From the NCBI GenBank assembly GCA_949130485.1, contig OX422185.1, positions 16,867,011 through 16,931,010 on the forward strand: DNA of 64,000 nt, given 5' to 3'. Below are positions 865-64,000 of the stretch, piece after piece. Position 1 is the first letter of the stretch; each line of letters begins with the position of its first letter. Origin of the DNA: Agelas oroides (Eukaryota; Porifera; Demospongiae; Agelasida; Agelasidae). A model generated the notes under the pieces. The model made no database searches and was not told where the DNA came from. It saw only the letters and a list, made by a program, of their open reading frames with translations. Position numbers and translations under genes: made by a program.

Positions 865-1807
865 CTTTATTTAGAGTTACACGTAACAACACTCAAGTAC
901 GGTATAAGCAACATTCCAAATGTCTATGTAATGCAAAAATTAATAGAAGCCTCTAAGATCACATGAACAAACATTCCAAATGTCTATGTAACGAAGAAGT
1001 ACTATACACCAATTAATTAAGCCTCTACATAATAACAACAGCGCAATTGAGAAGTGTTATAATAACAACATCAAATATGAACAAACATTCAATTAAATGA
1101 TAGAAACTCAACCTAATAACAACATTAGATCACTAGAAACCTTCACAAACCACAACATCAAGCCATTTATTGAGTTAGCAATAATCAGTAATTGGACATT
1201 TGTAAATTATCTATCATTAGCAAACCCTACCTAGACTAATTAGGGACAGAAAATATTGACAATACTGCAAGCTACATACATTCTTAAGATTCCTAACTTG
1301 TACTTCTGTCAGGGTAATGATAGCTCTTAACCCATCAAAATGCATGCTGTCAATCAAACAGTGAATATAAAGTTAGCCTTGCTCCCAGGCTCCCCTGCTC
1401 CGGAACGAGAACATTGAAGTTGTGCAGGTGGGGAGAGTCTGGTATTTTCTCTCAGGTGAGCAGGGTCAAAGGTTGAAAGACCTTAATTGTGTGTGGGCAT
1501 ACCTGAAGACTCAGAACAGCAGAAAGAGCAAAGGTAGTGGGTGACTTACTTCACATATATAACTAGTGAGGGGTGAATAATATTCCTACACACCAAGCAT
1601 TGAGTGTATATAGTTAGATGAACAGTGTGCAATACGTTGCATTCCTGTTCCCAAAATTCTGGCTGCTTTTGATTATGCAACCCTACTTAGACTAATTACG
1701 TCCAGAAGACATGAAATAATGAGATTTACAGGTTCGTTATGAGCAAAAATTTGAAAGCAACTTACGTATGTACTTAAATACCTTCCGTTTTTCATGCATT
1801 GTGGGCA
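865..1807. other. Gene-free AT-rich stretch
   Basis: No exon-like frame was found. It contains old repeat relics, for example 1380-1470, which resembles the TAGCCTCG foldback interior and recurs at 31510-31600. The whole stretch is homologous to 29808-31870. Confidence 0.4.
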
Positions 1808-1999
1808 ATATAACCCGTTACCCCAGGCAACATCTAAGAATGTTGCCCATATCTCTCTTGTACAGTGATGTTGCCTAGGTAACAGGTTATATAATAGTTA
1901 TATCCCTCCCTGGGGGGTGGTCGTTTTATACATTGGTGTCAGGCTACGCCCACACCAATGTGTAAAACGACCACCCCCCAGGGAGGGATATAACTATTA
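1808..1999. mobile_element. Compound double-palindrome foldback element
   Basis: Two adjacent hairpins. The first has arms of the type ACCTAGGCAACAT / ATGTTGCCTAGGTAAC. The second has arms around TATCCCTCCCTGGGG and its complement, with a central loop near CACATTGGTGTC. Unit 2 has the empty site at about 34771-34777 (GTGGGCA followed directly by TAAGAGCACC), so the two palindromes were gained or lost as one unit. Confidence 0.75.
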
Positions 2000-2034
2000 C
2001 TAAGAGCACCATGCAAACCTGAGAACAGTTAGAA

Positions 2035-2152
2035 TTTGCTTGCTAATTGCCTCATTGCTTGCTAATTGCCTCATTGCTTGCTAATTGCCTCATTGCTTGC
2101 TAATGGCTTCATTGCTTGCTAATTGCTTCATTGCTTGCTAATTGCTTCATTG
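2035..2152. repeat. 19-bp minisatellite (TTGCTTGCTAATTGCCTCA)n, about 6 copies
   Basis: About six head-to-tail copies of a 19-bp unit with C/T and T/G variants. The homologous site in unit 2 (about 34811-34832) has a single copy, so the array expanded in unit 1 or contracted in unit 2. Confidence 0.85.
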
Positions 2153-2159
2153 GGGCTAT

Positions 2160-3720
2160 ACTTTGTGCGACTTGGACTATGGAATCCGCAACAAAAGAAA
2201 CTGGAACACATTTCACATTTCAAGGAGAACCAGCTAGGAAACCTCAGTAACTCGACAAACCTTTGATTTGCATGAGGAAAACTGATATGAGCCAAAGTAG
2301 CAATTAGCGTTAGTATCCAGCCCATTTTAAGAATTGTACACCAAATAAATGATGCAAATTGAATAGACAATACAAGCTCAATTTTTTGAATTCCAAACTT
2401 GTACTTCCTATCAGCAACTGCCCATGCAACCGTGTTAATTCACAACTGATGCAAATCTGTCAGGTAACGATAATTCATAACCTATATTATACCCCCCATC
2501 AAAAGACATTCAGCCAATCAAGCAGTGAATAATCAACAGATAGTCTTCTAGAAGAGATCTAGCCATGCTCTCAGGCTCACTCTTGAATGCCAACATTGAA
2601 ATCGTGAGGGTGGGAAAAGCCTTGTACCTTTTCTCGTGTGAGGGACGTCAAAGTAGAAGAACCCGTACTGCTACACAGGTTTTGCTGCAATATTTTAAAT
2701 TCCCCCAAGTGTCAAGTGTACATTACATCATTTCCTGTCCTATGAATATATTGCACAATATTACAGTCAGTATGTGGCGTCATGGGACTACCTGTACAAT
2801 GAATATATAGGATTGCCACTTCAAATCCTGCACAAAGTTAATTTCTGCTACGGACTGCACATGAGTGTCAGACAGACTCTTTTACTTTTTTTTTCATAAA
2901 TTTGCTTCCAATCATAATAGTGGTACAAAACCCAACCTAGTCTACATTATAGATAGTTTTGTGTAAGAGTAAAAGTAGATGAATATTGTGAGGCTTGGAT
3001 TCATCACTAGTCAAGGCTAAGACAAAAATTTTTTCTTTTATTATTATTTTCATAAATTTGCTTCCAAAGAAGGACCTTAACTGCATGTGGGGACTCAGCA
3101 CAGCAAAAAGAGTGAAGCCATTTGGCTATTATTTACTAGACAAAACATGTTGCTCAACAAACTATACGTTCAAACATTAGGTGTGTAGAATATTTCTGAT
3201 TTCACCATGCTCACACTGGCCTGATGTCTTTGGAACTGACATGAACCATGGAATATTGTAGGGCGTCCATGATGGCTGTGGTTACTTCCCTCCCAGTCAA
3301 TACCCAGTAATCAATACGTAAGGGATTCAATTCTGTGTGTGCATTGATTCATAAAGCCTTTGAAGAAGCCATCAGTTAAAAGACGGAATTTACTCATTTC
3401 TGTGTCAAACACTTTTAAAAAAGCCCTAGACTGAGGTCTTGTCTATCACAGACAGTTACCAATTTCATCAAATCCATACACGTTACATTTTGTCTAAAGT
3501 TTAGAAACTTTATTGTATCCCTACTCAGCATTGCTAGGCACCAATGCATAAAAAGTAATTGGTATAAAGATAACATTTGTGCACATATGTAGCTACTTTA
3601 AATATTCCAGTTTCCAGCATGTCGCATGTATTTATTTTGGGTCAAAAAATTAATTTTATACCATGAAACCATTCAAAGGAAGAATGTAGAAGCATTGTGC
3701 ATAGCTAGTACCTTTTCCCC
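2160..3720. other. Gene-free stretch
   Basis: No supported exon. 2560-2660 resembles 35200-35290 and is another decayed relative of the foldback interiors. From about 2900 to 3720 no counterpart was seen in unit 2. Confidence 0.3.
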
Positions 3721-3894
3721 CCAGCTATGAATACCGTTTCCTGTCAGTGTCGGCTGCTGCACTGGCGGCGCCTCCCGGGGATATGATCCGGGAGTATACG
3801 AGTAGTAACCGAGCACCGGCCGGGGAATCCACTCGTTGTTTACAGTCGTGTAGCCATCCGTACAACTTCCGGCGTTTCTATTGTAGTGCGGAAG

Positions 3895-3902
3895 TGACGT
3901 CA
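3895..3902. promoter_or_regulatory. CRE-like palindrome TGACGTCA in a CpG-rich segment
   Basis: A perfect cAMP-response-element palindrome in a locally CpG-rich segment (about 3750-4120) unlike the AT-rich surroundings. This is compatible with a promoter, and the short frame at 4034 starts 130 bases downstream. Promoter function is inferred only. Confidence 0.35.
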
Positions 3903-4033
3903 CGACATAAAATGGCGCTGAAAGTGTCGAAGAACCCGGCTAGCTGAGATTGTGTGCAGCTAGCATCACACCGCCGATCCGAAGAAAGTCGCCGTTTCAA
4001 ACGAAAGTGGGATGATTGTAGTAAGCTATTTTG

Positions 4034-4192
4034 ATGGCGTATATATGTAAAATTACGCTGAATGGAAATCCCGCTCCGATGTTCTGCCGACCTGATGGGG
4101 ATGATGGAAGTGTGTGTCAACTCTTTGGCTGTCTGGCTCCCAGAAGGAAAGGTTTGCAGTTACAATATTCTATTTACAGATACTTCCAGTAG
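4034..4192 (+). CDS. Possible first exon or small protein of 52 residues
   Basis: A 53-codon frame starts MAYICKITLN just downstream of the CpG-rich CRE segment. It has four cysteines and no signal peptide. The codons up to about 4150 look more protein-like than the tail, so it may be a first exon whose donor was missed. No homologue is recognised and no unit 2 copy was found to test conservation, so this is a weak call. Confidence 0.2.
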   Translation: MAYICKITLNGNPAPMFCRPDGDDGSVCQLFGCLAPRRKGLQLQYSIYRYFQ

Positions 4193-5480
4193 TATAGAGC
4201 AGATCTATTTGACACAATAGACTGCATGTTGTGGCGGAATGAAATGTGCCAAATTGTTTGTGCTTTCTGTTAGCTTGGACTGTGTAACTGTGTCCACTTG
4301 TGGAACCTCTTCTTCAGTGGGCGTTGGAATCTGAACAGCATGTGGGTTTAGAAGTGACTAGGAGTAGATGTATGTAGTTTGTGAAGGGTTATGACACTTT
4401 TCACAAACCAAATCCGAGAGGGTTGGTCACCCTGGTATGAATGCATGGACTTGGTGACGCATGATCATACAATATCTGTGGTTGGCTTACTATGTTGCTA
4501 AAATGCCACAGTATCACTTCCTCTAGAACATATACTATGTATTTCCCTCAGGTATACACTGGCCAGTGTATATTATCATTTCAGAATTCCGAAGAATCAT
4601 GTGCAAGGTGAGCAATTTGTACACAGTCGCATTCCCAGACTCTTCCCACTTCAACAAAAACTGGACAGCGGTGAAGGCTGGGAATGAGGCTAAAAGAATG
4701 TAGCAAGCTCTCCCTACTTAAACTGAAGGGGAAGGTCAGGGAGATCTCGTCACATGCACAGTGATGTGACGTATGAGTCTGGAAATGAGGCTAGCCTAGT
4801 CAGACATGGCACCTAATGGGTGGAATCCCAGTTCTACACAGAAAAGAATGTAACACTAGCTACAAACTGTGACTAAGATATCAATACCATCTGTGTAGTA
4901 CAAGTGTACGTATAGAGAATTGTGAGGGCTAGTGGTAAAACACTGGCTGTTTAAGCCAGAGGCCTTTGACCAAGGATTTGATTTCCAGCAACTGCCACTT
5001 TTTTCATACTAACATCCAACAAACCGTGCTCACCATTTATGCATAACTATGACAGTTCTTATCCGGTGTTTTTAACTGTAAAATGTGTCCTTTTTTTCAC
5101 AGGCTATAGACATTCACAACTCCACTTTTCCGTTTGAAATGGTTGCTGCTAAGAACAATTATAATAGGTTGACAATAACAGCAGGGCCCACAGCATTGGC
5201 CAGGATGCTTGGCACAGCACAGGCCCCAAAATGTGGCCGATATTCACTTTCACACAACAATTACCTGTATTCTGCATGCATTGTTGTTTGTTGATAATGT
5301 CATCACTTTGATTATCAATTATGTGCACATACATTATTTTGCAGTTACCAAACTTGCAGGTATAAAACTTCTATCCATGTACTACAGTGACTACTGATGT
5401 CATAGCCTACAGTCGTGGCGGAATGAAATGTGCCAAATTGTTTCAGAGTACATGCAAACGCTAAATTTCTCCTGTTTCTG
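4193..5480. other. Gene-free stretch
   Basis: No supported coding sequence. It contains a 29-bp direct repeat beginning GTGGCGGAATGAAATGTGCC at about 4230 and 5415, and the tRNA-like segment listed separately. Confidence 0.3.
4922..4998 (+). repeat. Degenerate tRNA-like sequence (possible SINE head)
   Basis: The order of parts resembles a tRNA: a D-arm/A-box-like GGGCTAGTGG, an anticodon stem CTGGC/GCCAG enclosing a 7-base loop with TTT, then a B-box-like GGATTTGATTTCC. The T before the anticodon is replaced by G and the acceptor ends do not pair well, so a functional tRNA is unlikely. A tRNA-derived SINE head or a pseudo-tRNA fits better. Confidence 0.3.
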
Positions 5481-5634
5481 CGTCCTCGTGGCCGCGATCC
5501 GGGTATTTACCACTCCCACACACGGTCAACCATCTGTACCATGGAACTGTGGTCGCTTTGCGCGCTCGAGTTGCTTCTTGTGGCTGCGCGAACGCTTTTT
5601 GCGGACCCACTCCAGCTCTCGTATTCAACTTTCA

Positions 5635-5642
5635 TGACGTCA
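5635..5642. promoter_or_regulatory. CRE-like palindrome TGACGTCA upstream of the Pro/Cys-repeat gene
   Basis: The palindrome sits in a CpG-rich stretch (about 5490-5850) that precedes the start codon of the repeat-protein gene at 5861. It may be part of that gene's promoter. No TATA box was seen. Confidence 0.3.
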
Positions 5643-5860
5643 TCGCTAAAATAGGAAATGTATTGCGTAAATAGGACTTCCGGTCGGATGGCTACACGAC
5701 TGTTTATGTGGGCGTCATACTTCTTTATATGGCAAGTGTACAATTGTTACCGTTTCGTGTCGCTCTGTCGCCGCAACGTGACGTGCAAGTGAAGCTAGAG
5801 TTCCGAGTTGGGAAGCGCGCGACAAACCCACGAACTCGGTTCGTTGTGCAGTTTATGACA

Positions 5861-6678
5861 ATGACAACTTCTACCGGACTTGTTCCCCAGTTGCAGAAAG
5901 ACAAAGTGGATAGACATTCAACTATAACGGACCCATCAGCCGCTGCAAACCGCACGCCGTCGAGATGTGATTTCGCTCGGCAGTGTATCCGAGCCGCGTC
6001 ACTATGTGACACAGCAGAAACTGGACCGCATTTCTCGGCAGAGCTGGTTATGACACTCTGCCAACCTCCCCCCGTTGCGATCAACAGCCCTCGAATGGCT
6101 GCCACTCCTCCCGCCACACAGACAGGCAACTGTGACTGCTCGGTATGCCGCGCAGGGTTTCGCCCGTCACCGTTTGCCGCAGCAGAAACTGGGTCAAATT
6201 TACCGGCAGAACTGGTGATGATAACCCGCCAACCTCCTCCCTTTGCACTGAACGGACCTCTGCAAGGACCCCAATACAGAATGGATGCCCCTCCTCCCCT
6301 TCCACGGAGATGCAGCTGCGACCATTCGGTGTGCACGGGGTTCTGCCCTTCGCGTGTGCGACAGTAGAAACTGGACCAAATTCACCGGCAGAACTGGCTA
6401 TCGTATCCCACCAACCTCCTCCCGTTGTGCAACAGAGAATGGACGCCTCTCCTCCTGCGCATGCTCCACGGAGATGCAGCTGCGATTGTTTGGTGTGCAC
6501 GAGGTTCTGCCGGTCGTATATGAGCTTTCGACCATGCATGTCTGCATGCCACACCCCCACAGTAGAGGAAAGTACTGGACAGAATCATACCACCAGCTGC
6601 CAGCTTTGCCCACTGTGGATGACAGCGCCTGTGCAGGAGTCGCTGAGTGGGTACGAGGGACCCTCTGCCCTCGTATGA
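5861..6678 (+). pseudogene. Pro/Cys-rich tandem-repeat protein, unit 1 copy, frameshifted
   Basis: No known family recognised. From Met at 5861 (in-frame Met also at 5855) the frame runs to a stop at 6365-6367 and encodes MTTSTG followed by two modules. Each module has a T/A-E-T-G-x-x-x-x-A-E-L-V-M box, a PPP stretch and a Cys cluster such as CSCDHSVCTGFC. A third module, almost identical to that in unit 2, continues in another frame (about 6350-6678, ending SALV). The modules are thus interrupted by a frameshift near 6350 relative to the intact unit 2 copy. No intron signal clearly bridges it. It could be a pseudogene, a sequencing error, or a short protein. Confidence 0.55.
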
Positions 6679-7022
6679 ATGGTCACCACAAAGATTTCAC
6701 TTGAACTATACCTTCGGTTGTGTCCGCTTCTACTGCTTTCAGTCAACGTATATTGATTTAATCCCTCCCTTCACCCCCCCAATTCCACTTGATCCACTAC
6801 ATTGTATCTTCTCTTTGTTTTGGACTTAATTTAGAATTTTTTATTTTGTCGATGTCACTAATTGTAGCTGTGTTTTCGTTGGCCTTAATTTCTGTACGTA
6901 CTTCACCTATACACACAAATTGTTTTCATTCTTGAATGTATGTGCGTAAGACATATCACTATTTTGCTACAGTGTACCCCAAGCTGTTCACAGACTGACC
7001 CAGAGTTTAGTTGTCCCGTTGA

Positions 7023-7118
7023 TAATAGACCTATGAAGAAGAGATTGGAAACGCCCATTTTTTATTTGCAATTTACTATTCCAGAGTGTGTTGTCAATCC
7101 CTTCTCTGTAGGTCTATA
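7023..7118. mobile_element. Short TATAGACC-type foldback
   Basis: Arms AATAGACCTATGAAGAAGAG and the complement of CTTCTCTGTAGGTCTATA enclose about 50 bases. It is shared with unit 2 (about 36867-36962), so it predates the duplication. Confidence 0.55.
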
Positions 7119-7394
7119 ATCTTTGGTTGTCCCATGCTCACATCCCACTTTCTCATGAGGAAAAGGGTCTGGTGACTATTGAGTGCTTTCTTGATTACTA
7201 CTTGAATATTCAAATCATATCAAACAACCACATATTCAAGAGCCAGTACTACCAGCATGTAATGAAAAGAAGCCAGTACTACCAGCATGCAATGAAAAGA
7301 AGCCAGCATGCTGTGAAGCCATATAATATGCCTTAGTGTCTGTATGCTAACAAGAACACACACACACAATAATCCACAAAGCACTCCTCTAAGA

Positions 7395-8018
7395 TAGCCT
7401 CGTTCCCAGGCCCCGCCCAGCTTTCCGTCACTTGCAGTACGGAAAAGCGGTAGAGGGCCTGGAATAATTCATCACGTGAGTGACGTAGGGGTAGAGAGAA
7501 GGGTAGAGAGGACTTAATTGAGCGTAGGCGGATCGTCGACGTGCCCACGCACGTAGTTGATCGATAATCGACAGTACACGTAGCTGTTTTGTAGTAGGAG
7601 CCCATTCTGGCAGTTTTTTCGAACAATAAGCGCAGAGAAAACTTGAGCAAAGCCTAGGAAAGGGCCGCCTTGGCGTTTAATAGCGCCTTGAAAGCCATTC
7701 TCCGGGGTCTACAGCGGTCAGTTTGCCAGGTAAGCGAGTAGGTTAGCGTGATTTTCGAATGTACGGGTCTGTGTAAGCTCACCATAGCTTTCCGTACTGC
7801 CAAGTAATGTAGCATAGTGCCGTCTAGTTCCATTCTGTTGGCCATAAAGCTATCGCAACTGTATTCTGTCCATACAGCGTGGGCGAGTTCATTCGTTCAC
7901 CCACATGTAATTAAGTTCTCTCTACCTATGACGTTTCTCACGTGATAAATTTTACCAGGCTCTCCCCTTTCCTTTCGATTTTTCGTTCGCGCGCAGGGAG
8001 AGCCTGGGAACGAGGCTA
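7395..8018 (+). mobile_element. TAGCCTCG foldback element, 624 bp, 9-bp TSD
   Basis: Ends TAGCCTCGTTCCCAGGC and its inverse complement GCCTGGGAACGAGGCTA. It is flanked by a perfect 9-bp duplication CCTCTAAGA (7386-7394 and 8019-8027). The homologous unit 2 site (about 37225-37240) is empty. No transposase frame is present; the open frames inside it are not supported as genes. Confidence 0.9.
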
Positions 8019-8027
8019 CCTCTAAGA

Positions 8028-10181
8028 ACTACTGCATGAAAAATCTGCCACGGTTTTATGGGACGCGGTTTAGAATTGGGAAATAGACAGGTATGTGTGC
8101 ACTGCAGCTATGAGCAAAATGCAAGCAAAATAGTGCTACATCACTTCCCTACAATCAGTGACAAGTGAGAGAGCAAGGTAAAAGATTGGCTGTACTGCTG
8201 TCACAATTGCTCTCCGGAAGAGGTTGGCCTCACCATTTGAAAACCGTGTATAGCATGTCGACATCTAATGACTTAGCAATAAGTCTCAACAAGTCCACAG
8301 ACTATTCTACTGAGACTTCTTAAACATCTCATAAGGCAACAAAGTTCTGGAATATGGAACAACGTACAGTTCATCACTTGGCTAGTTACAGTGTTTTGTA
8401 TCCTTTTCACTCCTATGGTCAGTCGTATACAGTGCATCTGTGATGATGACCCATTAACCTCATGGCATACTATCATCTCAATTCCCTCCATTGATCAAAT
8501 CCGCCTCCTGAACCTAAACATTATGTAGCCACAGTACTCTACCCAACCACTATACAAAGTTTTCCACTTCTGTTTACTGGTTTGTACAAACTTTCTTGTA
8601 CATACAGTTTACCAAAAAGTTTGATGTCCCAAGATAGGATTCCTGGTTATTATAAGAGAGTACACAATTGTGTAACAGCTACAGTTGAAGAAACCCCAAA
8701 CCAACAATGTTGACATTGTGGGAGTACATGTAAGTGCTACAAGGCACCTCAGACTGTATAAATAGAGTGCTTCCTCATCACAATATCAGATTACAAGAAT
8801 GTGGGCAAGTCCTGTCTGTCCTCTCTTGATGTGTACTGTTCACACATTCAGTTGCACAATCGACAGTACATGTAGCGGTCATTTCTATAAAATTTAATAG
8901 TATGTGTGGTGAAGGCTTGAGGGAAGCCTGGAATAGAGTCATGTGTCCAATGCCTCTTTGCAGGGCTCCATTTAGAAATTTTGTTAAGGGGGGAAAAATT
9001 GAGTATTGAAATTTCTGGTGAGTGACAATCCAAGTTGGTATGCTGCGGTAATGAATGGGTAACTACTTATAAACCCTGAAGAGGGGGGGGGGAGGAATCC
9101 TGTAAAATGGGGGCAAATGCCCCCTCCCCCCAATGAAATCCTGTCTTTGGAAGTCATTCTCCGAAATGAAAAAACATCAGTTTTGCAGGTAAGTGGTCAA
9201 GTCAGCATAATCCCTCACTTTGGGTGTTCTGTCAGCCATTAAGCTAAACAAGTACAATTTAGACAAAACTAGCAGCAAAGAGTGGGTGAGTTTATTTGTT
9301 TACACACATGCATACTATACATGTGACTATCTAAATTTCACCAGTTTCTATTTTCACATTCATCCACAAGGGGAGAGGCTAAGAACAAGGTGGTGATACA
9401 GTAGATTGTGCAACAAGCATAGCTGATTAGTGGAAAACCACAATTAATTTACTGTGTATGAACCAAGAGGAATGGTATGTTGAAGCTGGAAAGATTATCA
9501 GATTCATATGTGTAAATCAATATTGTGGTTCTTTGAAGGTTAATGGCACTATTAACTAGGGTCAACATGAGAAACTGGGAGGTGGGGTAGGCAGACAGCA
9601 AATCTGCTGAGCATGCGCAGAAGCCACGTGAAACAAGCCTCACATGTCAGACTAGCTCTCAATAGCGTATCCCACCCTCTCAAAACCCTTCTTTAAGAAG
9701 TGTTACAGAAGCTATGTCAGTTTTATTTCGGTGGATGTCTCTAACAATAAGTCCACCGTGAAAGGGCTGGGTGAAGCGGAAGTCCCCTTCCAGCTATCCT
9801 CTCCCAAGCTGGGATTAAGGACCATAATTAATAAATGAGAGAAGTAAAGGAAGGGACGGGCAAAGCAAAAGGCAGAAAAGTAACTGCTGTGGCAGCTACG
9901 CCCAGTACCTGACCCACCAAACCTCATTAGAGTTTTAGAGGGAATTAATGATGGCTACATCAGGCAAGGTTCTATACCTATTAACCACTGTTCAGCTTGC
10001 TTGGTACAAGACTTTTGCAATCTGCTGTAGCAAGAGTGATGGCACATGGCAGGTTTCAACCATGAACACATGCAAGTGCCATGAGGTCCCAACTACAGAT
10101 CGGCTGTGTAATTAAATCATGAATCATGGCAATGTCAATTATGCACTTGCCCAATTGAGTGTATCCATTCATGAACATGTT
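8028..10181. other. Gene-free stretch
   Basis: Homologous to about 37240-39430 in unit 2. No exon with splice sites was supported. The C-terminal exons expected for the minus-strand ZDHHC6-like gene could lie here or further left, but none was recognised. Confidence 0.3.
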
Positions 10182-10190
10182 ATGTCAACA

Positions 10191-10815
10191 TAGCCTCGTT
10201 CCCAGGCTCTCCCCGCGCGCGAACGAAAAATCGAAAGGAAAGGGGAGAGCCTGGTAAAATTTATCACGTGAGAAACGTCATAGGTAGAGAGAACTTAATT
10301 ACATGTGGGCGAACGAATGAACTCGCCCACGCTGTATGGACAGAATACAGTTGCGATAGCTTTATGGCCGACAGAATGGGACTAGATGGCACTATGCTAC
10401 ATTACCTGGCAGTACGGAAAGCTATGGTGAGCTTACACAGACCCGTACATTCGAAAATCACGCTAACCTACTCGCTTACCTGGCAAACTGACCGCTGTAC
10501 ACCCCGGAGAATGGCTTTCAAGGCGCAATTAAACGCCAAGGCGGCCCTTTCCTAGGCTTTGCTCAAGTTTTCTCTGCGCTTATTGTTTGAAAAAAACTGC
10601 CAGAACGGGCTCCTACTAAAAAACAGCTACGTGTACTGTCGATTATCGATCAACTACGTGCGTGGGCACGTCGACGATCCGCCTACGCTCAATTAAGTCC
10701 TCTCTACCCTTCTCTCTACCCCTACGTCACTCACGTGATGAATTATTCCAGGCCTTCTACCGCTTTTCCGTACTGCAAGCGACAGAAAGCTGGGCGGGGC
10801 CTGGGAACGAGGCTA
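10191..10815 (-). mobile_element. TAGCCTCG foldback element, 625 bp, inverted copy of 7395-8018
   Basis: The same element as at 7395-8018 in the opposite orientation, with few differences. It is flanked by the perfect 9-bp duplication ATGTCAACA (10182-10190 and 10816-10824). The unit 2 site near 39439 is empty. Confidence 0.9.
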
Positions 10816-11297
10816 ATGTCAACATAGTGTATTGATTGAGTTTCAATACGTGTATCTTGACTTGTACGTCTTCGTGTGCATGGCAATGATCACTCTTAAT
10901 GCTCAGCTAAGCATTTTTCTTTCTCAAAGATGTGGCGCTGTTTACAAGATGTGGTATAAGCTCTCTTCTGAATCATAAATATTATGACAGGTATATGTAC
11001 AGTAGCGTACAGTCAAATCCGTATTTTAATGTCCATTGCTATTTATGGTCTGCACCGCTTTCGAATTGTTCACACTTACAGCAGGTTATATATTTTTTTC
11101 CCAGACTACTAGCTAGTCAAGTCATCAGAACACCACAACATACTGCACCGTCACACACGTACGTAACAAACTCACTGCTTGTAGTTTCTTTAGCTTCTTC
11201 TGTTCCAATTGTTCAATCTGTGAAAATTCGAATTTTTATATAGTTTGTAAACACATTCAAATTATACATGCTGCTGTGTTGGATATCAATACCTGGG

Positions 11298-50975: not shown

Positions 50976-51123
50976 TACCTATAGCGGGAAACTTTCGGGG
51001 GAGTAAACTTTCGCGAATTTCGAGGTTTTGTAGCTATTCGCGAAAGTTTCTCCGCGAAAATCTTATTATTTTTCGCCAATTCGCGAAAAGTTTTCTCCCT
51101 CGAAAGTTTCCCGCTATACGGTA
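50976..51123. mobile_element. 148-bp MITE with TACC-TATAGCGGGAAAC ends
   Basis: Left end TACCTATAGCGGGAAACTTT; right end AAAGTTTCCCGCTATACGGTA. Inner motifs TTCGCGAAAGTTT repeat in both orientations. Confidence 0.8.
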
Positions 51124-51145
51124 TCATTCCTTCTTAGGGCTGGTG

Positions 51146-51950: not shown

Positions 51951-51959
51951 CTGAGTGAA

Positions 51960-52808: not shown

Positions 52809-54080
52809 TATAAACCTTATGCAGGGGCGTGGCTTCAAGGTTAGCAACCGCTATTTATGTTGCCATGGTAACACCAATTTTATATGACAGTTCTTATAGT
52901 CCAAATGGCCCAAATCTCAAATATGAAAGTGATCGGCCTTATGGTTGATTTTTTTAAAAATCGTCAAACTTTGGCATTTAAGTATTGAGTTCTATGGTGA
53001 GTGGCAACTTTTTGCTAGCCTCGTTCCCAGGCCTTACCACGCTTTTTGTTCTTCGGTTTGCGTTCAATATAATACACGGAGGCTGAAGAGCGCGAAAAAC
53101 GGGGAAGGCCTGGGAACACTTGTCACGTGAATGACGTCTGGTGGACGCGAGGTGGACGTAGGGGGGGCGGTGCCCAACTACAAATAACGTACTAGACTTC
53201 ATCATCGAGCGCTCCAACGATAGCCCAGACCTCAGACGTTCACGAGATCGACAGTACTCGACTTCACCGGTAAGAAACTCGCTCTATGGTTTATTGCACA
53301 CGAATTTGTAGTTGGGCACCGCCCCCCCTACGTCCACCTCGCATCCACCAGACGTCATTCACGTGACAAGTGTTCCCAGGCCTTCCCTGTTTTTCGCGCT
53401 CTTCCGCCTCCGTGTGAACGCAAACCGAAGAAGGGTAGGCCTGGGAACGAGGCTAACTTTTTGCCACTCACTAGGCTCCCGCACATTATGCTTCATTGCT
53501 ACCCTATTATGCTATTCCTTTATTCCTGATAATTTTACCAATTATGCTCAGTTACATTCCCCATTATGCCCAATGTGTACACAGCGTTTACGTGACAGTT
53601 CTGATCGCGTAGGGGCCTTGAGTCGGTCCAGCAATGAGATGTGGACTCCGTCTCCTTGGGCATACTACCCGAGCTCTGATATGAGCTGTTGCAAGAGTCA
53701 GACGTTGCGATCCTCGTGCTAGCAGTACCTAGTGTGAGCAGTATATACGTATACTACAGTTAATTTACACGTGGCATTCGGTTCAAAGGTTAAAAAATTA
53801 TGTAAGCGCGCATTGCGCTTACCTATTATGCTCGAAATTGTGCTTATGCTAATAGCTGCCTATTGTGCTTTAAATTATGCCGGCATAATATGCGCATGTC
53901 TACCACTCACCATAGACTTAACAGCGATTTTTTAAAAAATCAACCATAAGGCCGAACACTTTCATATTTGAGATTTGAGCCATTTGGACTATAAGAACTG
54001 TCATATAAAATTGGTGTTACCATGGCAACATAAATAGCGGTTGCTAACCTTGAAGCCACACCCCCTGCATAAGGTCTATA
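52809..54080. mobile_element. 1.27-kb TATAGACC foldback with nested TAGCCTCG element
   Basis: Arms of about 150 bp: left from ACCTTATGCAGGGGCGTGGC through the AATTTTATATGACAGTTCTT region to 52965; right, the complement, at 53925-54080 ending GCATAAGGTCTATA. A 440-bp foldback is nested inside (53016-53455), so this element is the older of the two. Confidence 0.85.
53016..53455. mobile_element. TAGCCTCG foldback element, 440 bp, 9-bp TSD, nested
   Basis: Flanked by ACTTTTTGC at 53007-53015 and 53456-53464. Long arms include TAGTTGGGCACCGCCCCCCC and inverse. Confidence 0.92.
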
Positions 54081-54632
54081 GAAGTAGCTATCACGGAACT
54101 TGGAAGCATGCGCGAAATTTTGACTAAATGCCGACATTGACAAAATAAGTCAGAAGTGTGGGTTGGCAGAATGAAATTACACCCCAAGTGGAAAGGAAAA
54201 AAATACCTAAGCTCCATGTGCAGTTTTAATACCCAGCTAGTGTATGTCACAATACATGTGAAGAACACATTTAGCGCTTAACCACTTGTACCAGCTCAGT
54301 GGCTGGTTTCAGCAGTTGGCACAACCTTTGTTGTCAGTAGGACCATGTCTTCATTTAACCCTCTGTCTTTCACCCTTGCTTACCACACCCTTAATAGCTA
54401 TGGCCTTTCTCTTTGTCAAAGTTTGTGCACTAATGGCCTTCCACCTATACCCGATACTTTGCACTTGGGATGCAGTTACCACCTGCATCCCATGCAGTCA
54501 CCGTTTCTTTCCACTTGCATGGGGTGCGGTTATGCTCAAAAGAAAAAAAAATTATGTGTAAATTAAGTGTGCCTGTTCTAGTGACGTTAACAACGTTGAA
54601 GAAGGAGCATCTAGTGGTTTGATGTATGGTGC

Positions 54633-55412
54633 ATGATGCATGAGTTAGGGACCGGTGAAGACTCTGGACTGCAAGTCAATGTTTCCAAAGAAGAAATCCG
54701 CGGTAGATTTGCTATTGGCGAAAACCAACGTCTCGAGTTCTACACTAAAATAAAGGGCAAAGAAATCGTATCCGTCACTACCTTCTGCAACTTGACCTCC
54801 GGTGTGTGCGTACAACTGACGTCACTCAAGCTACCAGTCACTGCTATTAACGACCGTAAAATCGAGCACATGCTAGAAAAAGTGTTGGATGCTGCAACCG
54901 TAACAGCAACCGCTTTTCTCGAAGAGGAAGGCCTACCGCCCATTTCCGACAACATTGTAAATTCCTACTATCAGTTCGCTGACGCTCTCTTCAAGCAAAC
55001 TGGCGAATTGGGTTCGGGTCAGCTGCGATTCAGCTTGATGTATCACAGTGCAATAATGGGCTCGGCGAAGCGGATAACTGATGGCGCTCAAAACCCCAAT
55101 GACATTTGCTCAGTGTCTGCTCAGTACTATTATGGAAACCGCCTTTTCGTTTGTATCCAGGATTTGGAAACCTCGATGTCAGAAGAAACATCGAGTCGGC
55201 AAAAGAGAGCCTTTCACCCGCGTAATGGTGGAAGACTCCCGAGTGGACGCCACTGGGGGTGCTGCGGCAACTATGCCGGGAGGTGCTGGTGGTGGGCTGA
55301 CTTGTGCTGGGTGCACGATTGCGTCTGTCAGTGTTGTGAACGCTGGTATTGTGGCTGGGCCTGTAGTAGCGAGTGGTGGTGTCGTGGTAGCTACCGCTAC
55401 AGGTGTTATTAA
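54633..55412 (+). pseudogene. Secreted-protein gene copy lacking promoter and signal peptide
   Basis: The sequence GAGTTAGGGA (conserved upstream of the other copies at about 27277) is joined directly to CCGGTGAAGACTCTGG, removing about 0.42 kb that holds the TATA box, leader and signal peptide. The frame opens at an unrelated ATG (54633) and then matches the mature part. The C-terminal Gly/Ala/Val-rich frame is open from at least 55081 to 55422 in this copy, without the TAA that interrupts it in the other two. It cannot be secreted by the usual route and is probably a pseudogene. Confidence 0.7.
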
Positions 55413-55735
55413 AACTGTTTAGCTTTGCTCTCCTTAGTGGTACATTACTGTCCTTTTCATGGCATGTACTTTTGTTACTGCATAACTGTGCACTTACAAT
55501 AATATTGCTTTTTTTTAGGGTTGTGTACCATGCACATCAAATTGCACTTTCAGTTGTATCTGCGTGTCCGCGCGTGGCTGAACAAGCCCGTTAGCTCGGG
55601 GACAATAGTACTGGAATCAAGGTTACTACGTGGATTTGAAACTACGTATTTTGCACACGCGTGACACTAACTCGTTGCGCAGTGTAACGGAGATTTACGG
55701 GAACCAGCTCCTCCCAACAGACACTTCGCTGCGGA

Positions 55736-55798
55736 TAGTCTCGTGCCCAGACTACTTTTCGCCGAGGTCGCGAAAAATGCGGTCTGGGGACGAGACTA
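55736..55798. mobile_element. 63-bp TAGTCTCG mini foldback at the deletion junction
   Basis: Begins TAGTCTCGTGCCCAGAC, ends GTCTGGGGACGAGACTA. Flanks CGCTGCGGA / CGCTGCGCG match 7 of 9. Only its last 11-13 bases survive in unit 1 (21669-21680). Confidence 0.8.
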
Positions 55799-56618
55799 CG
55801 CTGCGCGTTGCATCAGCTATCGAGAGAATTGATTTTGCATGCTAACAAACTACCGCTTCGGGCGTTTTTTTTTTTGGACGCACTTTCGACTTGTCTCTGG
55901 ACGACAATGTACCTGCGCATGCGCTGTGCCACACCCTCTGTGTACTTGGACCTTTGAGAAGGGCGTGTAGAGCAAAACGACTGCCAAGAAGACTGTAGTT
56001 GGAAAGAGAGCGATTTCTCAGGTACTACAATGTACTGCCAGTGAACTGTGAACAAGACTGAAAAGTATCTGGCCACTGTTCAATAAACTGTTGTCTCCTT
56101 TAGAAATACTAATTTTGCCAAAGACAATCACTGATGATAGTGCGTCATATAGTCCATTTTAGCCAGTAAGACATTCCAGTAACCTGGAAACTCCCAGGGA
56201 ATGTTGTCCCAGGAATGGGCAGCAATTAGAACTATCTTGCGTTTACCCAATGGGTAACAGAAAAGACTCTGAGATTCATACTGAGCTGTCTATTGAACTG
56301 CTATTCTGTGGGGTGCCTGGGAATGGTGTGAGAGTCTGTCATCATGTTGATTGAACATGATCGAGCCAAATAATACTAAAGGAAGCTATCCTTCTGGTGA
56401 CCTTTAACATCAAGAACTTCAACGATGCACTATCATATGCAGTGAACTGTGAACAAGACTAGAAAGTATCCGCTACCGTTCAATTTCTGTTGTCTGTTAT
56501 GAGTCATCATTTGCCAGCAAAATGATGGTGCACCATATAGTGAGAAACGACATTCCAGCTACCTGGAAACTCACAGGGAAAGGTGTCCCAGGAATGGGCA
56601 GAAATTAGAACAAGCTTA

Positions 56619-57706
56619 CAGTGCTACACAGCAAGAGAGTAGATTTTGTGTATGGTGTACCTTCTGCAGCATATACAGGCTAAACTTGCTTGTTCAGAAC
56701 TCTAATTTAATATTCAGTTATGTCAAGGGGGGGACTATATATACCTGAAATTATGGGCTGTAATGATCTTTGATGTGGTCTTTGCATGCATAAATGCATA
56801 AAAATTGTCGATTTTTATGTTAGGCACAGCTTCTGTACTTTGCATTCTAGTTAAGAATCATTATTTATGTTTCAGGAATGTACCAACGGACTCTACCTCT
56901 ATGTCAAGTTTGAAGCCTTAACTACTTACAGGGATGGAGATATTAACCAAAATAGGTTGAAAATTAGCATATTTACGTTAGGCAAAGAATCTTGCATGAA
57001 ATTCCGAGTTAAGACAGCAAATTGCACCCTACGCTTCTCTACCAGTTAGCAAATCATATTCAAGAACGACACTGCGAAATCTTGCAGTGTTCGCTCAATC
57101 CGGAAGCATACACATCCGCCGGTCAGCTTATCGAGTTAATGAATGGAAATGATGACGTACATAAGCGCACGTGCTAACCATTTGCGTATCGCCCGGACAC
57201 ACCCATCGATCAACCGGCTAGCCGGCCGTACCGTGCGAGCGCGGGAAGCATGGATCTACTAGTGAGTTTCCACTCTCAGTGTAGGGGGGTGAAGTTCTAC
57301 GATCTGCGTAGTGCTGGGGCGGAGTGGGGTACTAAACTGAAGCTAGTAAAGGAGTCAACAACCCCCCACGATCAACTGTGTGTCGTGGCTTGGGTCCCTG
57401 GGATACCCGGTGAGAGAGCCGCGGACCTCTGAGAAGAATCGGTCAAACTCGAAGACGAGAAACACTCCATGATACCTGTGCGCTACCGAACGGCTGATAA
57501 TAATTTTAGTGCGCATTGAATTGAATATTGATGTCATGAATTTTATTAACCGACGTCACGGATGATTGTCAACGTCATCAATACGTCAAAAACACCGATC
57601 TCTATAGCTCACATAAATAGAGGCCTTATAAGTCATGGTTCTGTTAGACAGATGGAATGAACTTTGCGTGCAAGTTTACCAAAAAATCTACTCTCTTGCT
57701 GTGTAG
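56619..57706 (+). mobile_element. 1,088-bp hAT-like element with HIRAN-like exon (unit 2)
   Basis: Same length, ends and AACAAGCTTA flanks (56609-56618, 57707-57716) as the unit 1 copy. It was duplicated along with its unit rather than inserted separately. Confidence 0.7.
57250..57432 (+). CDS. HIRAN-like domain exon (unit 2)
   Basis: Protein sequence identical to the unit 1 copy, with the same CpG-rich leader and the same internal position in the element at 56619-57706. Confidence 0.4.
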   Translation: MDLLVSFHSQCRGVKFYDLRSAGAEWGTKLKLVKESTTPHDQLCVVAWVPGIPGERAADL

Positions 57707-58168
57707 AACAAGCTTATGTTGTCCTGACTGGATGCAGAGATCCATACTTAACTGTCTATTGAGCTCAACTTTAATATGCAAAGTTGAAGCAGTGAGACTT
57801 GTCTGGTGGTGGACAATGAAACAGTGACCTTGTAGGGAATCAAAGCTATCCTAAGCAGATACAAACAAGACCCTATTTTTTAGCAAGAATCGAAATACCA
57901 TGTTCTTCAATGACATACAACATTAACTCATGGTATCATGGACTAATGAGTAATTCGTGACTACAAGCCATCGTGGTGGCACTACATGCACTAGATGATG
58001 AACAAACGGAACCAGTTAATACACTTGAACTATATACTCCAACTACGGCACAAGGCACCATTATAAAAATGACAAATTATGGTTTCATTAATTTTAATAC
58101 AAAATTGTGGTGTTTCAGCTATAATTGGCATGTGTGTTACAAAATCCTCATTCACATGCAGGCCTTCC

Positions 58169-58770
58169 TAGCCTCGTTCCCAGGCCTTCCCCGGCTCCAG
58201 TTTTTGATCGCTTGCAGTATGGGAGGGAGAAGGCCTGGTGAATCTTACCACGTGATCCGCGGCACACATGACGTCACAGGTTCTAGACACGAAGACATAT
58301 TCACATTTATATCTCCAGCTACAGAGAAGCTAGAGAAACAAGACAAGTTCCAGCCGAGAGACAAGTCCCACCTCTAGAACATAACCGAGTCCAAAGCAGA
58401 ACCGCCGAAGGAATGTTCCGCTGCAAGCGTTGCAAATCCAAAAGTGGCTTCTTTTTCGCTACGTTAGCTACATTTTGTCACTGGGGACATTTCACGCATG
58501 TCGTTTGGCAACCCTTCGGAGCTATCCCTTCTAGCTCGGATATGTTTTGTACGCTTGATGTTGTTCTCCGTCGGCGCTTGTCTCGTCTTCGTAGCTAGTA
58601 CAGAACACAAGATCGGTCTTCTCCCTAGCATGGCTATACATATAAGCGTGACGACATGTGACGCCTGTGCCGCGGATCACGTGGTAAGATTCACCAGGCC
58701 TTCTCCCTCCGTTTTTGCATACTGCAAGCGATCAAAAACTGGAGCCGGGGAAGGCCTGGGAACGAGGCTA
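58169..58770. mobile_element. TAGCCTCG foldback element, 602 bp (unit 2)
   Basis: Copy of 24051-24654 with the same GGCCTTCC flanks and a 2-base deletion. Confidence 0.9.
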
Positions 58771-59084
58771 GGCCTTCCCACTGTCTAGCTTTACAGACCA
58801 TGCATGGAAAGGCAGCTTGGAAACAAGACTAGAGTAACCCGCATTGAAGAAGGTTGTCTTAGGCCATACCAATCTACTTTTATAAAGACCTCGAATAGTA
58901 AAGAACAGTAGAGTGTTATAGATATGCGAAAAATAATTTTGTTCCTTGTGAATGATTTACTGTGCTATTGTATAATAGATTACATGTATGTGCATGACAT
59001 ATATCAACTAGAGGTCTTCTGAGAAGACATACCCCACGCAAAATTCAAACTGAACTGTTTGTTACCCATGCATGCCCATAACTG

Positions 59085-59676
59085 TTTTTTTTTTTTTTTA
59101 TATAAAATTTATGTCATAAATGACAAAGGCAACATGACTATAGCTGATAGCTAATGTGAGACATGTGCCTCAAAGTGATACAACAAGGATCTTTTAAAGG
59201 AGATAGAAGAACATAATTTAACTGAGTCAGGCAAATTGTTCCAGGAGGAGATTACAGAAGGTACAAATGAGTGATACATGTAATTAGTATGTGCAAAAGG
59301 TCTAGTAAAATTAAACGTACTTGTACGATTAAGGTGGTATGGTAAATTACTTTGTACAAAGATACTAGATGGGAAGTCCATATGACCACTAACAATATTG
59401 TACATTGCAGTTAGCTTAAGATATTTACGACGAACTGACAGATGGGGGAGGTTGAGCAGTTGCAACATACTGTCATAGTCCAAGTCCCATTGCTTGAGAC
59501 AGACTTTACAAGCAAATTTTTGCACAGCTTCCAGTGACTGCATGCCCTTGTTCAAGAATGGGTCCCAGAGTTGGCAGGCATACTCCAAGTGAGGTCTTAT
59601 GCATGTACGATAGATAAGCAGCAGGGTGTTGGAGTCAGCCCAGCTATAAAACTGTCTGTACAACTGTTGCATATTA
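59085..59676 (-). mobile_element. Non-LTR retrotransposon 3' fragment (unit 2)
   Basis: Same 173-codon fragment (59151-59672), identical in protein sequence, with the same A-tract end. It was duplicated with the unit. Confidence 0.85.
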
Positions 59677-60334
59677 CACAGATTAAACGTTCGTGGTATG
59701 CAGTGTACATCATATTACATAGGGTATCTACACTATAATATTAAAGCTGGTTGTAAGGATGAAAGATCAAAGGATTTTCCAACTGAAGGTCTACTCTTGT
59801 GCCCAGCCTGCCACACCCCCCAGCCCCCTGATGGCTGTCAGCAAATACTTGCTGACCAACTTCGAATTCATAGAGTAATTGACCGACCTCATCAAGCCCG
59901 CATAGGAGCGTTCGGCACTAATAACACGCCATATTTCACTCACCTGTGAAATGGTAGTCTCGTGCCCAGTCGTTCACGAGATCGAGACTAGTGAATGCGT
60001 AGCCTCGTTCCCAGCCCCCCGCACAGCTTTTCGCAATCCTGGGAACGAGGAGGCTGGTGAACACGAACACGTGCTTGGAGTCCGCATACTGTGCCCGGTC
60101 TCTACCGTATCCAAGTGGTTGACCGTATCAAAATGGTGGACAATACCAATGTTAAATAGAAAATAGCTGGAAATGCAGAGGAGTGAACTGCTTTGGTCTC
60201 TATCAGGTACACATACATTTTTTTTTTTTAGATTGCCATGTCATTGCCGTGTACAGCAATTGTTTAACCCAGTAAATGTGTTGATTTCTAAATTTTTCAC
60301 CGGACTGACAACTTGACAGACGGACAAAACCTCC

Positions 60335-60649
60335 TTAACCCCTTCGCGCGGGGTAATCATCAGTGTGGCTTTTCCTTCTTCTTTTTGGTAATGGTGTTTC
60401 ATCTATAACAGACTGAGTGCTCTTCTTTATCCGCTTCCTCTTGCGGCAGTTCCCTCTAACGGGATCAAGAGCTGCAGATCCCTGGACCCTAAGAGAGACT
60501 GTTATCTAGGAACTGCCTTGCTCAAGGGTTCTCATTACGTCCACCACAAGCCCTCTGTTTGCCAAAAAAACACTCTAGGGGATCCTGTGTAAGTCTCTCA
60601 CTGAAGAGGTATTGCACTCTTGGCTGCTTGAATAAGTACTCTGCCATCT
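60335..60649 (-). pseudogene. P-element/THAP9-type transposase C-terminal relic (unit 2)
   Basis: Same relic with the same nonsense codon and frame break as unit 1. It was therefore already dead when the right parts of the units were copied. Confidence 0.7.
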
Positions 60650-60977
60650 CTATAAAGGAGTGTACTGTAGAGATGAAATGGCACATAATGTGTGATCAAT
60701 GACATATTACCAAAAATAATCCATACATGTTTAACTATAGTCCAGCTACCTCCAGCTTGCAACTGACCTTGAAGACAGTGGATGGTCAGTATCTTACATC
60801 ACGCTATAGAGATTGGATCTCTCGGCCACTTTGAACCAAACGCCACGAGAACACTTCATCAGATGCCTTCCTTCTATCCAAGCAGGAAGCTATATAAGCA
60901 AGTATTGATGAAACTATCTAGGATTGCAGTTTCCTGCTCTTATCATATTTTCAACGCCAGACTTTGTAGTACCTGGG

Positions 60978-61068
60978 TAGTCTCGCAAGCCAGACCCTTT
61001 CCGCGCAGCGCCGATCGCTTTCAGTATGCGGCACGCGCTGCGCAGAAAGGGTCTGGCTTGCGTGACTA
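60978..61068. mobile_element. 91-bp TAGTCTCG foldback (unit 2)
   Basis: Copy of 26862-26952 with the same GTACCTGGG duplication. Confidence 0.92.
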
Positions 61069-61686
61069 GTACCTGGGATGTGAACAAACCTGTATATGCT
61101 CTTAATCGTTTTATTTTTATTTTTTATTCGTTACTTGCATATATTTTGTTGCCTTGCCAAGCCCATCACTCCTCTGTGTTGGTATCTTGTTGTCCTAGGC
61201 TACTTACATATGGCCTTCCACCTATACCACCTGCATCCCATGCAATCATCGTTTTCTTTCCACTTGCATGGGGTGCGGTTATGCTCAAAAGAAAGAAAAA
61301 TTATGTGTAAATTAAGTGTGCCTGTTCTAGTGACGTTAACAACGTTGAAGAAGGAGCATCTAGTGGTTTGATGTATGGTGCATGATGCATGAGTTAGGGA
61401 ACAAGATATAGCTAGCCTTGAAGGCAGGAGGTATACCAAAGTCAGAAGTGTGAATGGCAGAGAATTGAATATTCAGACAAAAGTATCTGTTGTAGTTAGC
61501 TCTGTTATGTAGCGTAGCTACAACCCAACTACCACAGCGTCATAATGATGACCGTTGATATAGGCCTGTATGCGTGGGCTGCACGGTCTGCGAACTTGAA
61601 AATAGCGTAATTGATTATTGCGTATAGAAAGTACAAATGTCGGTCCGAGACCAAAATAAGAATTTTAAAATTTGGGCAAAATCAGG

Positions 61687-61696
61687 CTATATAAAG
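61687..61696 (+). promoter_or_regulatory. TATA box of the secreted-protein gene (unit 2)
   Basis: CTATATAAAG at the same spacing from the ATG at 61769 as in unit 1. Confidence 0.6.
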
Positions 61697-61768
61697 CAGA
61701 GATGTTCACCGCAACCATCTATCAGCGCATTATTACCGCCCTCGGAGAATAAATCCCTCGACCTCATC

Positions 61769-62587
61769 ATGATTGCTGCAATTTGTTGGGCGCTTGTGCT
61801 CTTCGGAGTAGCGGCCGTGTCCGGTGAAGAGTCTGGACTGCAAGTCAATGTTTCCAAAGAAGAAATTCGCGGTACATTTGCTATTGGCGAAAACCAACGT
61901 CTCGAGTTCTACACTAAAATAAAGGGCAAAGAAATCGTATCCGTCACTACCTTCTGCAACTTGACCTCCGGTGTGTGCGTGCAACTGACGTCACTCAAGC
62001 TACCAGTCACTGCTATTAACGACCGTAAAATCGAGCACATGCTAGAAAAAGTGTTGGATGCTGCAACCGTAACAGCAACCGCTTTTCTCGAAGAGGAAGG
62101 CCTATCGCCCATTTCCGACAACATTGTAAATTCCTACTATCAGTTCGCTGACGCTCTCTTCAAGCAAACTGGCGAATTGGGTTCGGGTCAGCTGCGATTC
62201 AGCTTGATGTATCACAGTGCAATAATGGGATCGGCGAAGCGGATAACTGATGGCGCTCAAAATCCCAATGACATTTGCTCAGTCTCTGCTCAGTACTATT
62301 ATGGAAACCGCCTTTTCGTTTGTATCCAGGATTTGGAAACCTCGATGTCAGAAGAAACATCGAGTCGGCAAAAGAGAGCCTTTCACCCGCGGCCGCGTAA
62401 TGGTATAAGACCCCCGTGTGGACAGGACTGGGGGTGCTGCGGCAACTATACCGGGAGGTGCTGGTGGTGGGCTGACTTGTGCTGGGTGCACGATTGCGTC
62501 TGTCAGTGTTGTGAACGCTGGTATTGTGGCTGGGCCTGTAGTAGCGAGTGGTGGTGTCGTAGTAGCTACCGCTGCAGGTGTTATTAA
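61769..62587 (+). CDS. Secreted protein of unknown family, unit 2 copy, 272 codons
   Basis: The upstream frame from 61637 runs through the TATA box, so Met 61769 (signal peptide MIAAICWALVLF) is chosen. The body is the same as the unit 1 copy except for single changes. Without the 2-base deletion the frame continues through a basic S-R-Q-K-R-A-F, which would fit a furin-type proprotein cleavage site, into a Cys/Trp-rich tail of about 55 residues. The +1 frame over that tail reads as a plausible Gly/Ala/Val-rich hydrophobic segment ending V-I-K-T-V (stop 62595-62597), so the Cys/Trp reading may be a shadow. The body call is reasonable; the C-terminus is uncertain. Confidence 0.6.
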   Translation: MIAAICWALVLFGVAAVSGEESGLQVNVSKEEIRGTFAIGENQRLEFYTKIKGKEIVSVTTFCNLTSGVCVQLTSLKLPVTAINDRKIEHMLEKVLDAATVTATAFLEEEGLSPISDNIVNSYYQFADALFKQTGELGSGQLRFSLMYHSAIMGSAKRITDGAQNPNDICSVSAQYYYGNRLFVCIQDLETSMSEETSSRQKRAFHPRPRNGIRPPCGQDWGCCGNYTGRCWWWADLCWVHDCVCQCCERWYCGWACSSEWWCRSSYRCRCY

Positions 62588-62678
62588 AACTGTTTAGCTT
62601 TGCTCTACTTAGTGGTGCATTACTGTCCTTTTCACTGCACAATCATGTACTTTTGTTACTGCATAACTGCATGTGCAC

Positions 62679-63083
62679 TATAGACCTTATGTAATACCTC
62701 ACGTAATTAAACGTAAAACGGAAAGTGGACGGAGTCCGGATACTACGCCGCCATTTTGAGTGGCAAGCAAGACCGCGGTCTATGGAGCTTAAGTACGGTG
62801 AAGCACTTTGCGAGCTCGCTGCGTCAACGAAGCATGCAGGTAAGCTTATTCGCTTCGGTGAGCGTTAGGTCCTGTTGAGGCCTTGTACATTCTGGGTGTA
62901 AACGTAAAATCACTTACTGGGCTGGTGAGAAAGGAGCTTGCAAACTGCTCCGCTGTACTTAAGCTCCATTGACCGCAGTCATTTTTTCCACTCAAAATGG
63001 CGGCGTAGTATCCGGATTTCCGTCCACTATCCGTTTCACGTTTGTCTACGTGAGGTGATGACGTCAATTGCATAAGGTCTATA
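62679..63083. mobile_element. 405-bp TATAGACC foldback (unit 2)
   Basis: Copy of 28561-28965 with the same length and ends. Confidence 0.85.
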
Positions 63084-63365
63084 AATAACATTGTTAGGGT
63101 TGTGTACCATGCACATCAAATTGCACTTTCAGTTGTATCTGCGTGTCCGCGCGTGGCTGAGCAAGCCCGTTAGCTACTACTGGAATCAAGGTTACTACGT
63201 GGATTGGATGCTACGTGGATTGGAAACTACGTAATATGTTTACATGGGAAGGCATGGTAATTTAAAACTTGTCACGACATGTGGAAGACATGTGCAAGAC
63301 GTGTGCAAGATACTAACAGTCTACTTGAGTACTAAGGCTGAGAGAGGAGAATGAATCATACTGAC

Positions 63366-63626
63366 CAAGAGCGCATAAGAACGGGCGGCTAGAGTAAGAG
63401 CGTGTAACTACGTAAAATTCGAAACCGGGCGGAATTTACCGCCAGTACTAAAAATAGTAACACACCCTGCACATGCTGCGTTGACATAAGCCATTATGCA
63501 TTGTTGCTAAGCACGCATGTGACCATGTGTTCTATTATTAGCACAGTTCAATAATTTTGCCCGGACTACGGGCTTCTATTGGAGTTACACGCTCTTACTC
63601 TAGCCGCCCGTTCTTATGCGCTCTTG
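63366..63626. mobile_element. 261-bp AAGAGCGCAT foldback (unit 2)
   Basis: Copy of 29248-29508 with the same TACTGAC flanks. Confidence 0.85.
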
Positions 63627-63863
63627 TACTGACGTTTGCCATCTTGTCACTGTGACAGTGTCATCACGTTTGACACTAATCTTTCCCTCGTCACACTTGG
63701 GAGCACAGAGGCACGTCATGAGGCCGAAGCTAAGAGGACATCTGTTACCATGGTAGTCTCGCTGCACCTTACAGACAACCTGTGTGTGGAGGGAAAACCA
63801 CATGTAGTCCAGTGTAAGAAGAACTAGAAAACATAACAACACTTCACATGGTGTCAAGCCCAT
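63627..63863 (-). CDS. Candidate exon with hydrophobic N-terminus (unit 2)
   Basis: Same frame as at 29509-29739 but with an in-frame ATG (MGLTPCEVLLCFLVLL). A hydrophobic segment at residues 6-22 suggests a signal peptide. The frame would end inside the adjacent foldback at 63366-63626. The function is unknown and the call is weak. Confidence 0.28.
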
Positions 63864-63925
63864 ACCATATCTCCACAGGAAGAAACAACAACATGCGCCT
63901 AACGGCGAGGTGCATTCAGTGTGTG

Positions 63926-64000
63926 CTTTATTTAGAGTTACGCAGTGACTGCACTGCAGTGCTTAATAGTGATTATAAGTGAAATCCATTTAACAATGCG
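63926..64000. repeat. Start of a third tandem unit
   Basis: The last 75 bases repeat the unit 2 start at 29808 in the same orientation. The array therefore continues beyond the window, or the assembly repeats itself. Confidence 0.85.

Follow-up and report, generated by a model that had tools for sequence, protein, structure and literature searches.

We analysed a 64,000-nucleotide stretch of the genome of the demosponge Agelas oroides (C3:16867011-16931010, hereafter the window; the assembly comprises 259 Mb in 141 contigs), which carries a tandem array of repeated blocks. Each block contains one gene for a ZDHHC6-like palmitoyltransferase, together with one or two copies of a gene that encodes a predicted secreted, cysteine-rich peptide precursor. 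As the sequence-only reading of this DNA had proposed, self-comparisons were made, of the window alone and then of a 144-kb stretch consisting of the window and 40 kb on each side; they establish that the repeat is real and that three co-linear units lie head to tail on the same strand. Unit 1 (A) extends from about 910 to 29882, its earliest detectable similarity to unit 2 being in short pieces at 910-1082, right after an assembly gap of 200 N (658-857) that abuts the unit on its left. Unit 2 (H, a mosaic) spans about 30173 to 63998; its left portion resembles unit 3 and its right portion unit 1. Unit 3 (B) follows unit 2 outside the window. The earlier suggestion that a third unit starts here was correct as to its existence, but the unit is not merely begun, since its matches extend as far as position 89156, counted from the start of the window. 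There is no N between the units, and within the 144 kb compared the gap at 658-857 is the sole one.

Every unit carries a single DHHC domain, on the minus strand, which scores 65.2, 65.2 and 61.9 bits in units 1 to 3 against a Pfam cut-off of 28.7. A genome search returned 15 DHHC matches, 12 of them on other contigs. Unit 2 was also scanned frame by frame: of 149 frames that begin within 30000-56000 and are 55 codons or longer, 121 were compared with Pfam, the 28 dropped ones being mainly overlapping, composed of minisatellite or located near or beyond 54.4 kb, and shorter exons are missed by such a scan. Eight Pfam families were matched by one frame each. The DHHC match (best E-value 2.7e-16) and a zf-RVT match are credible; those to Mucin-like, Peptidase_M61, STPRs, DUF6647, DUF6033 and PsbY were not taken as such.

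Exons in a consistent order were found with a human ZDHHC6 probe, and their boundaries were placed by eye on GT/AG sites. The predicted gene models are partial, as small exons are possibly missing between exons 3 and 4 and between exons 7 and 8. Gene 1 is a fragment (12496-21161, minus strand) with exons 7 (12496-12576), 6 (13057-13134), 5 (15406-15459), 4 (19594-19713), 3 (20414-20570) and 2 (21070-21161); no exon 1 or exon 8 was found for it. Gene 2, the mosaic (29485-50539, minus strand), has an exon 8 frame at 29485-29661, followed by exons 7 (40947-41027), 6 (42010-42087), 5 (42934-42987), 4 (47383-47502), 3, which encodes the DHHC domain (48269-48425), 2 (48908-48999) and 1 (50312-50539). 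Gene 3, also on the minus strand, reaches from 63603 to about 86.2 kb, with its exon 8 frame at 63603-63779 and the other exons at about 75.2-86.2 kb, outside the window. The exons found for genes 2 and 3 are open and flanked by GT/AG sites, as judged by eye, and both genes overrun the limits that the repeats set for the units. When the genome was searched for exon 1, two places were found, in units 2 and 3. A sensitive comparison gave no counterpart of exon 8 for gene 1 to the left of the gap; the 3' end of this gene may lie in the 200 N themselves.

The assignment to ZDHHC6 rather than to another DHHC protein is provisional and is made from the match to this probe, the sole ZDHHC sequence compared (E 3.5e-10 for exon 1; 34.9%, E 0.001 for exon 8). 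Like ZDHHC6, the sponge genes have a DHHC exon, a cysteine-rich exon before it and a C-terminal exon that aligns to the SH3 region of the probe. They differ in that the solved structures matched are those of ZDHHC9, ZDHHC20, ZDHHC5, an unspecified palmitoyltransferase and ERF2. Literature on ZDHHC6 together with tandem duplication consisted, in our search, solely of papers on cancer, leukaemia and palmitoylation.

The peptide precursor is encoded on the plus strand. It begins with a signal-peptide-like stretch, continues with a propeptide and an R-(Q/E)-K-R site, and ends in a part rich in cysteine and tryptophan; the signal peptide and the cleavage site were judged by eye and are predictions. 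In the unit 1 copy (27653-28466) the frame is broken upstream of the cysteine-rich part. Unit 2 has two copies: copy 2a (54615-55409), which lies in a 6.28-kb segment described below, is open and lacks the signal-peptide part of the other copies, and copy 2b (61769-62584) is open from its start codon, with an RQKR site and a cysteine/tryptophan-rich C-terminus. The unit 3 copy is open from start codon to end. Members of the family were noted at L021:4339-5157 as well as at the site of copy 2b and on contig C4. Seven matching pieces were found in a genome search, corresponding to the four array copies (one in two pieces) and to one copy on contig C4, also in two pieces (C4:1295790-1296619), which is divided between two frames. 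Raw counts of three ZDHHC6-like genes and four peptide copies overstate the number of intact genes, because gene 1 has no exon 1 and only two of the four peptide copies are undamaged.

Eight relatives of the precursor, with 72-91% identity, were found at E < 0.001 among 829 candidates; their source is given as 'ena', they are mostly from short contigs, and they have no precomputed Pfam domain. Copies 2a and 2b have no Pfam match above the cut-off (for 2b, PetM reached 13.5 bits against a cut-off of 25.1), and a search of solved structures with the peptide produced no convincing hit (best E 0.59). An AlphaFold model of the unit 3 precursor, made with nine relatives, was poor, with a mean predicted local distance difference test (pLDDT) score of 37.6. 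Among 8 of the 13 papers matched in a search on secreted sponge peptides, none was recognised as treating this family. That the peptide serves in defence or signalling is a guess. Known here from sequence alone and matched by no Pfam entry, this family is the feature of the locus that is least familiar.

The right parts of units 1 and 2 are recent duplicates. The identity of 29808-29880 with 63926-63998 and the recurrence of 21671-29807 at an offset of about 34118, both claimed in the sequence-only reading, were borne out: on the plus strand, 21665-29882 matches 55784-64000 at 99.61% over 8220 columns, with offsets of 34116-34119. The first copy continues to 31145 and from there, interrupted by small indels, as far as about 43.0 kb, and the second continues beyond the window; in the 144-kb self-comparison, 21665-31145 and 55784-65263 are 99.62% identical. 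Of the 21063 bases that could be compared over 21665-43000, 87 are substituted (0.41%), 58 by transitions and 29 by transversions, and 500-base windows are 97.8-100% identical, mostly at least 99%, until about 43.0 kb. Two insertions or losses also distinguish the copies of this young duplication: about 190 bases at 31146-31335 are present in unit 2 only, and about 385 bases at 73941-74326, which by eye look like a mobile element, in unit 3 only.

Further to the left the relationships change. In five blocks within 1058-13195, unit 1 is 84.9-92.9% identical to units 2 and 3 over ungapped columns (7-15% apart), and units 2 and 3 are 99.1-100% identical to each other. At 15.4-18.9 kb all pairs of units are mostly 92-99% identical in 250-column windows, with one minisatellite window at 88.7%. 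Between about 19.0 and 21.7 kb the identity of units 1 and 2 is 98.6-100%, one aligned piece having 11 substitutions in 1827 bases, and unit 3 is 85-98% identical to them, the lowest values being in minisatellites and most other windows being at about 96%. The spacing of the units changes as well. The offset from unit 1 to unit 2 is 27.3-32.7 kb over 1058-21667 and about 34.1 kb from 21665 rightward, and the jump at 21665 arises because the 6.28 kb at 49505-55783 have no counterpart in unit 1. The period of about 34 kb given in the earlier reading thus describes the right part, and not the more diverged left part with its spacing of 27-33 kb, although the left and middle parts do follow in the same order in the self-alignment of the window, as had been stated.

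Two minisatellites within the repeated block differ in copy number between units 1 and 2. One, with a repeat of 33 bases, occupies 47628-48057 between exons 4 and 3 of the ZDHHC6-like gene and has 13 copies there and 11 in unit 1 (19839-20202). The other, of 39 bases, has 4.4 copies in unit 1 (16984-17153) and 8.4 in unit 2 (44460-44785). Further direct repeats are found in the left flank (loci L024, L023, L018 and L017; window coordinates): -23512 to -22156 with -10103 to -8774 (93%, offset 13.4 kb), and -21632 to -19604 with -5279 to -3236 (95.5%, offset 16.4 kb).

To describe the mosaic we used informative sites, at which two units agree against the third, in eight alignable blocks with 9431 clean columns. 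Units 2 and 3 agree at 398 such sites, units 1 and 2 at 134, and units 1 and 3 at 52. A change-point test was applied to the first two classes, the 52 sites of the third being left out. At the best change point, 374 of the 389 sites on the left join unit 2 with unit 3, against 24 of 143 on the right, where the remaining 119 join it with unit 1; the likelihood ratio was matched by none of 1000 shuffles. The formal change point is at about 16.4-16.5 kb in unit 1, which equals about 43.9-44.0 kb in unit 2, but the mixed zone extends to about 19.0 kb in unit 1 and about 46.8 kb in unit 2. The switch is a zone of about 3.8 kb (43000-46800) and not a point, with unit 3-like sequence to its left and unit 1-like sequence to its right. 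This zone lies in the intron between exons 5 and 4, and gene 2 therefore consists of a 3' part of the gene 3 type and a 5' part of the gene 1 type.

The 6.28-kb segment at 49505-55783 is present in unit 2 and absent from unit 1, where its flanks are joined at 21664/21665. Because parts of it, at 49.5-50.9 kb and 54.7-55.4 kb, match unit 3, the simplest reading of its absence is that unit 1 has lost it by deletion. The breakpoint ends have a 3-base CTG in common (by eye), and the right end falls within a 24-nucleotide inverted repeat (55736-55759/55775-55798) that is 83% complementary. The zf-RVT match (E 1.4e-7) is at 51034-51522 in this segment and marks the remains of a reverse transcriptase of the type without long terminal repeats (non-LTR). 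A second non-LTR remnant was recognised by eye only at 25038-25598; its copy at 59154-59714 has no Pfam match above the cut-off. Near the 21665 breakpoint starts a repeat (21740-22500, about 760 bases) that is dispersed in many copies. Its copies across the genome are mostly 75-85% identical, and at least 60 matching pieces were found with 40 of 299 candidates scored.

We consider it likely that the array is genuine, that its middle unit is a hybrid produced by recent unequal crossing-over between the older units A and B, and that a deletion occurred in unit 1. The ancestral block, in which a ZDHHC6-like gene and a peptide gene lay on opposite strands, would have been duplicated long ago to give A and B. 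Recently, chromosomes or chromatids would have paired out of register, and a crossing-over of B with A in a large intron of the ZDHHC6-like gene would have yielded the product A, a unit with the left part of B and the right part of A, and B. The middle enzyme gene would in this way have obtained its 3' exons from B and its 5' exons from A. A deletion of 6.28 kb in unit 1, of the end-joining type, would have removed exon 1 and one copy of the peptide gene. The divergence is similarly low on both sides of the new unit (87/21063 and 11/1827), as a single event predicts, and the array so formed would be present in the living animal. Unequal crossing-over is a known process, of which this is probably a real and legible case.

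Several observations weigh against this interpretation. The divergence of 0.41% is also plausible between alleles. The formal change point sits towards one edge of the switch zone, and within 43.0-46.8 kb all three units are a few per cent apart, unit 2 being near-identical to neither of the others. Moreover, 27 of the 52 sites shared by units 1 and 3 fall in the blocks 15386-16990 and 17671-18216. A single clean crossing-over does not yield this pattern, so that either local gene conversion or parental chromosomes or haplotypes that had already diverged must be added to it.

The sequence-only reading had left the choice between a recent segmental duplication with several genes and haplotypes placed in series. 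The former is the better supported, by three gap-free paralogous blocks, a mosaic middle and block-specific indels. For the latter to hold, both haplotypes would be A-B, and the assembler would have walked through A and the left part of B on haplotype 1 and then through the right part of A and B on haplotype 2, creating a false chimeric middle unit. Such an artefact would produce the identical order of pieces, a divergence of 0.41% suits alleles, and a contig gap (658-857) adjoins unit 1. A report on one published sponge assembly describes heavy curation that included haplotypic duplications, with a reduction in length of 47.54% in all (PMC12616128), which counts towards an artefact. False duplications on one scaffold are, according to a second report, mostly separated by gaps and sometimes joined without N by sequence lacking read support (PMC9516828), so that false joins free of N do occur, and neighbouring copies at allele-like divergence, as here, can be false heterotype duplications. 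However, the gap between copies that usually marks a false duplication is absent from this array, which has three units and, beyond the recent stretch, an older paralogous divergence. In the left blocks the difference between units 1 and 3 amounts to 7-15%, and a false join would have to fall at a place where A and B are several per cent apart. When parts of the array (1000 bases, 261 bases, and 319 and 77 residues) were searched, no second near-identical copy was found elsewhere in the assembly, each search having scored a limited number of candidates and none covering the whole array. We regard an assembly artefact as unlikely.

A history in which three old tandem units were partly homogenised by gene conversion, with no recent change in copy number, is less probable still: the star-like switch zone resembles conversion, and units 1 and 3, which are 7-15% apart in the five left blocks, are mostly only 1-7% apart in that zone, but the tracts would need to form two long stretches of about 11-13 kb each, contiguous over the unit border and at one low level of divergence, and one duplication is preferred because it explains two long, equally young stretches more simply.

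Haemoglobin Lepore and the red and green opsins are the textbook hybrid genes that arise by unequal crossing-over in tandem families. The sponge array is like them in that its middle copy combines parts of the two beside it, the switch is in an intron and the exons found are still open. It is unlike them in that the unit is about 30 kb long and holds two unrelated genes, the switched one being a ZDHHC6-like enzyme gene.

Segmental duplications and short repeats in an invertebrate gene cluster are also features of the Sp185/333 immune genes of the sea urchin, as described in a report on them (PMC5103432). The copies are far fewer here, and the likeness implies neither an immune role nor a relation in sequence.

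Favouring unequal crossing-over, we suggest, tentatively and as a rather doubtful extension of it, that the locus is young and still unstable in copy number. Intronic minisatellites and long shared introns might promote repeated unequal exchange, and individuals might differ in the number of genes for this seemingly undescribed family of peptides and carry chimeric palmitoyltransferases. Should read depth confirm the array, its low divergence would allow a direct test for variation in copy number in the living population. Whether or not the locus is still unstable, the array would be a clear example, seen at an early stage, of the growth of a tandem family: two ancient paralogous blocks, one of which has suffered a deletion, and a newly formed hybrid of the two.

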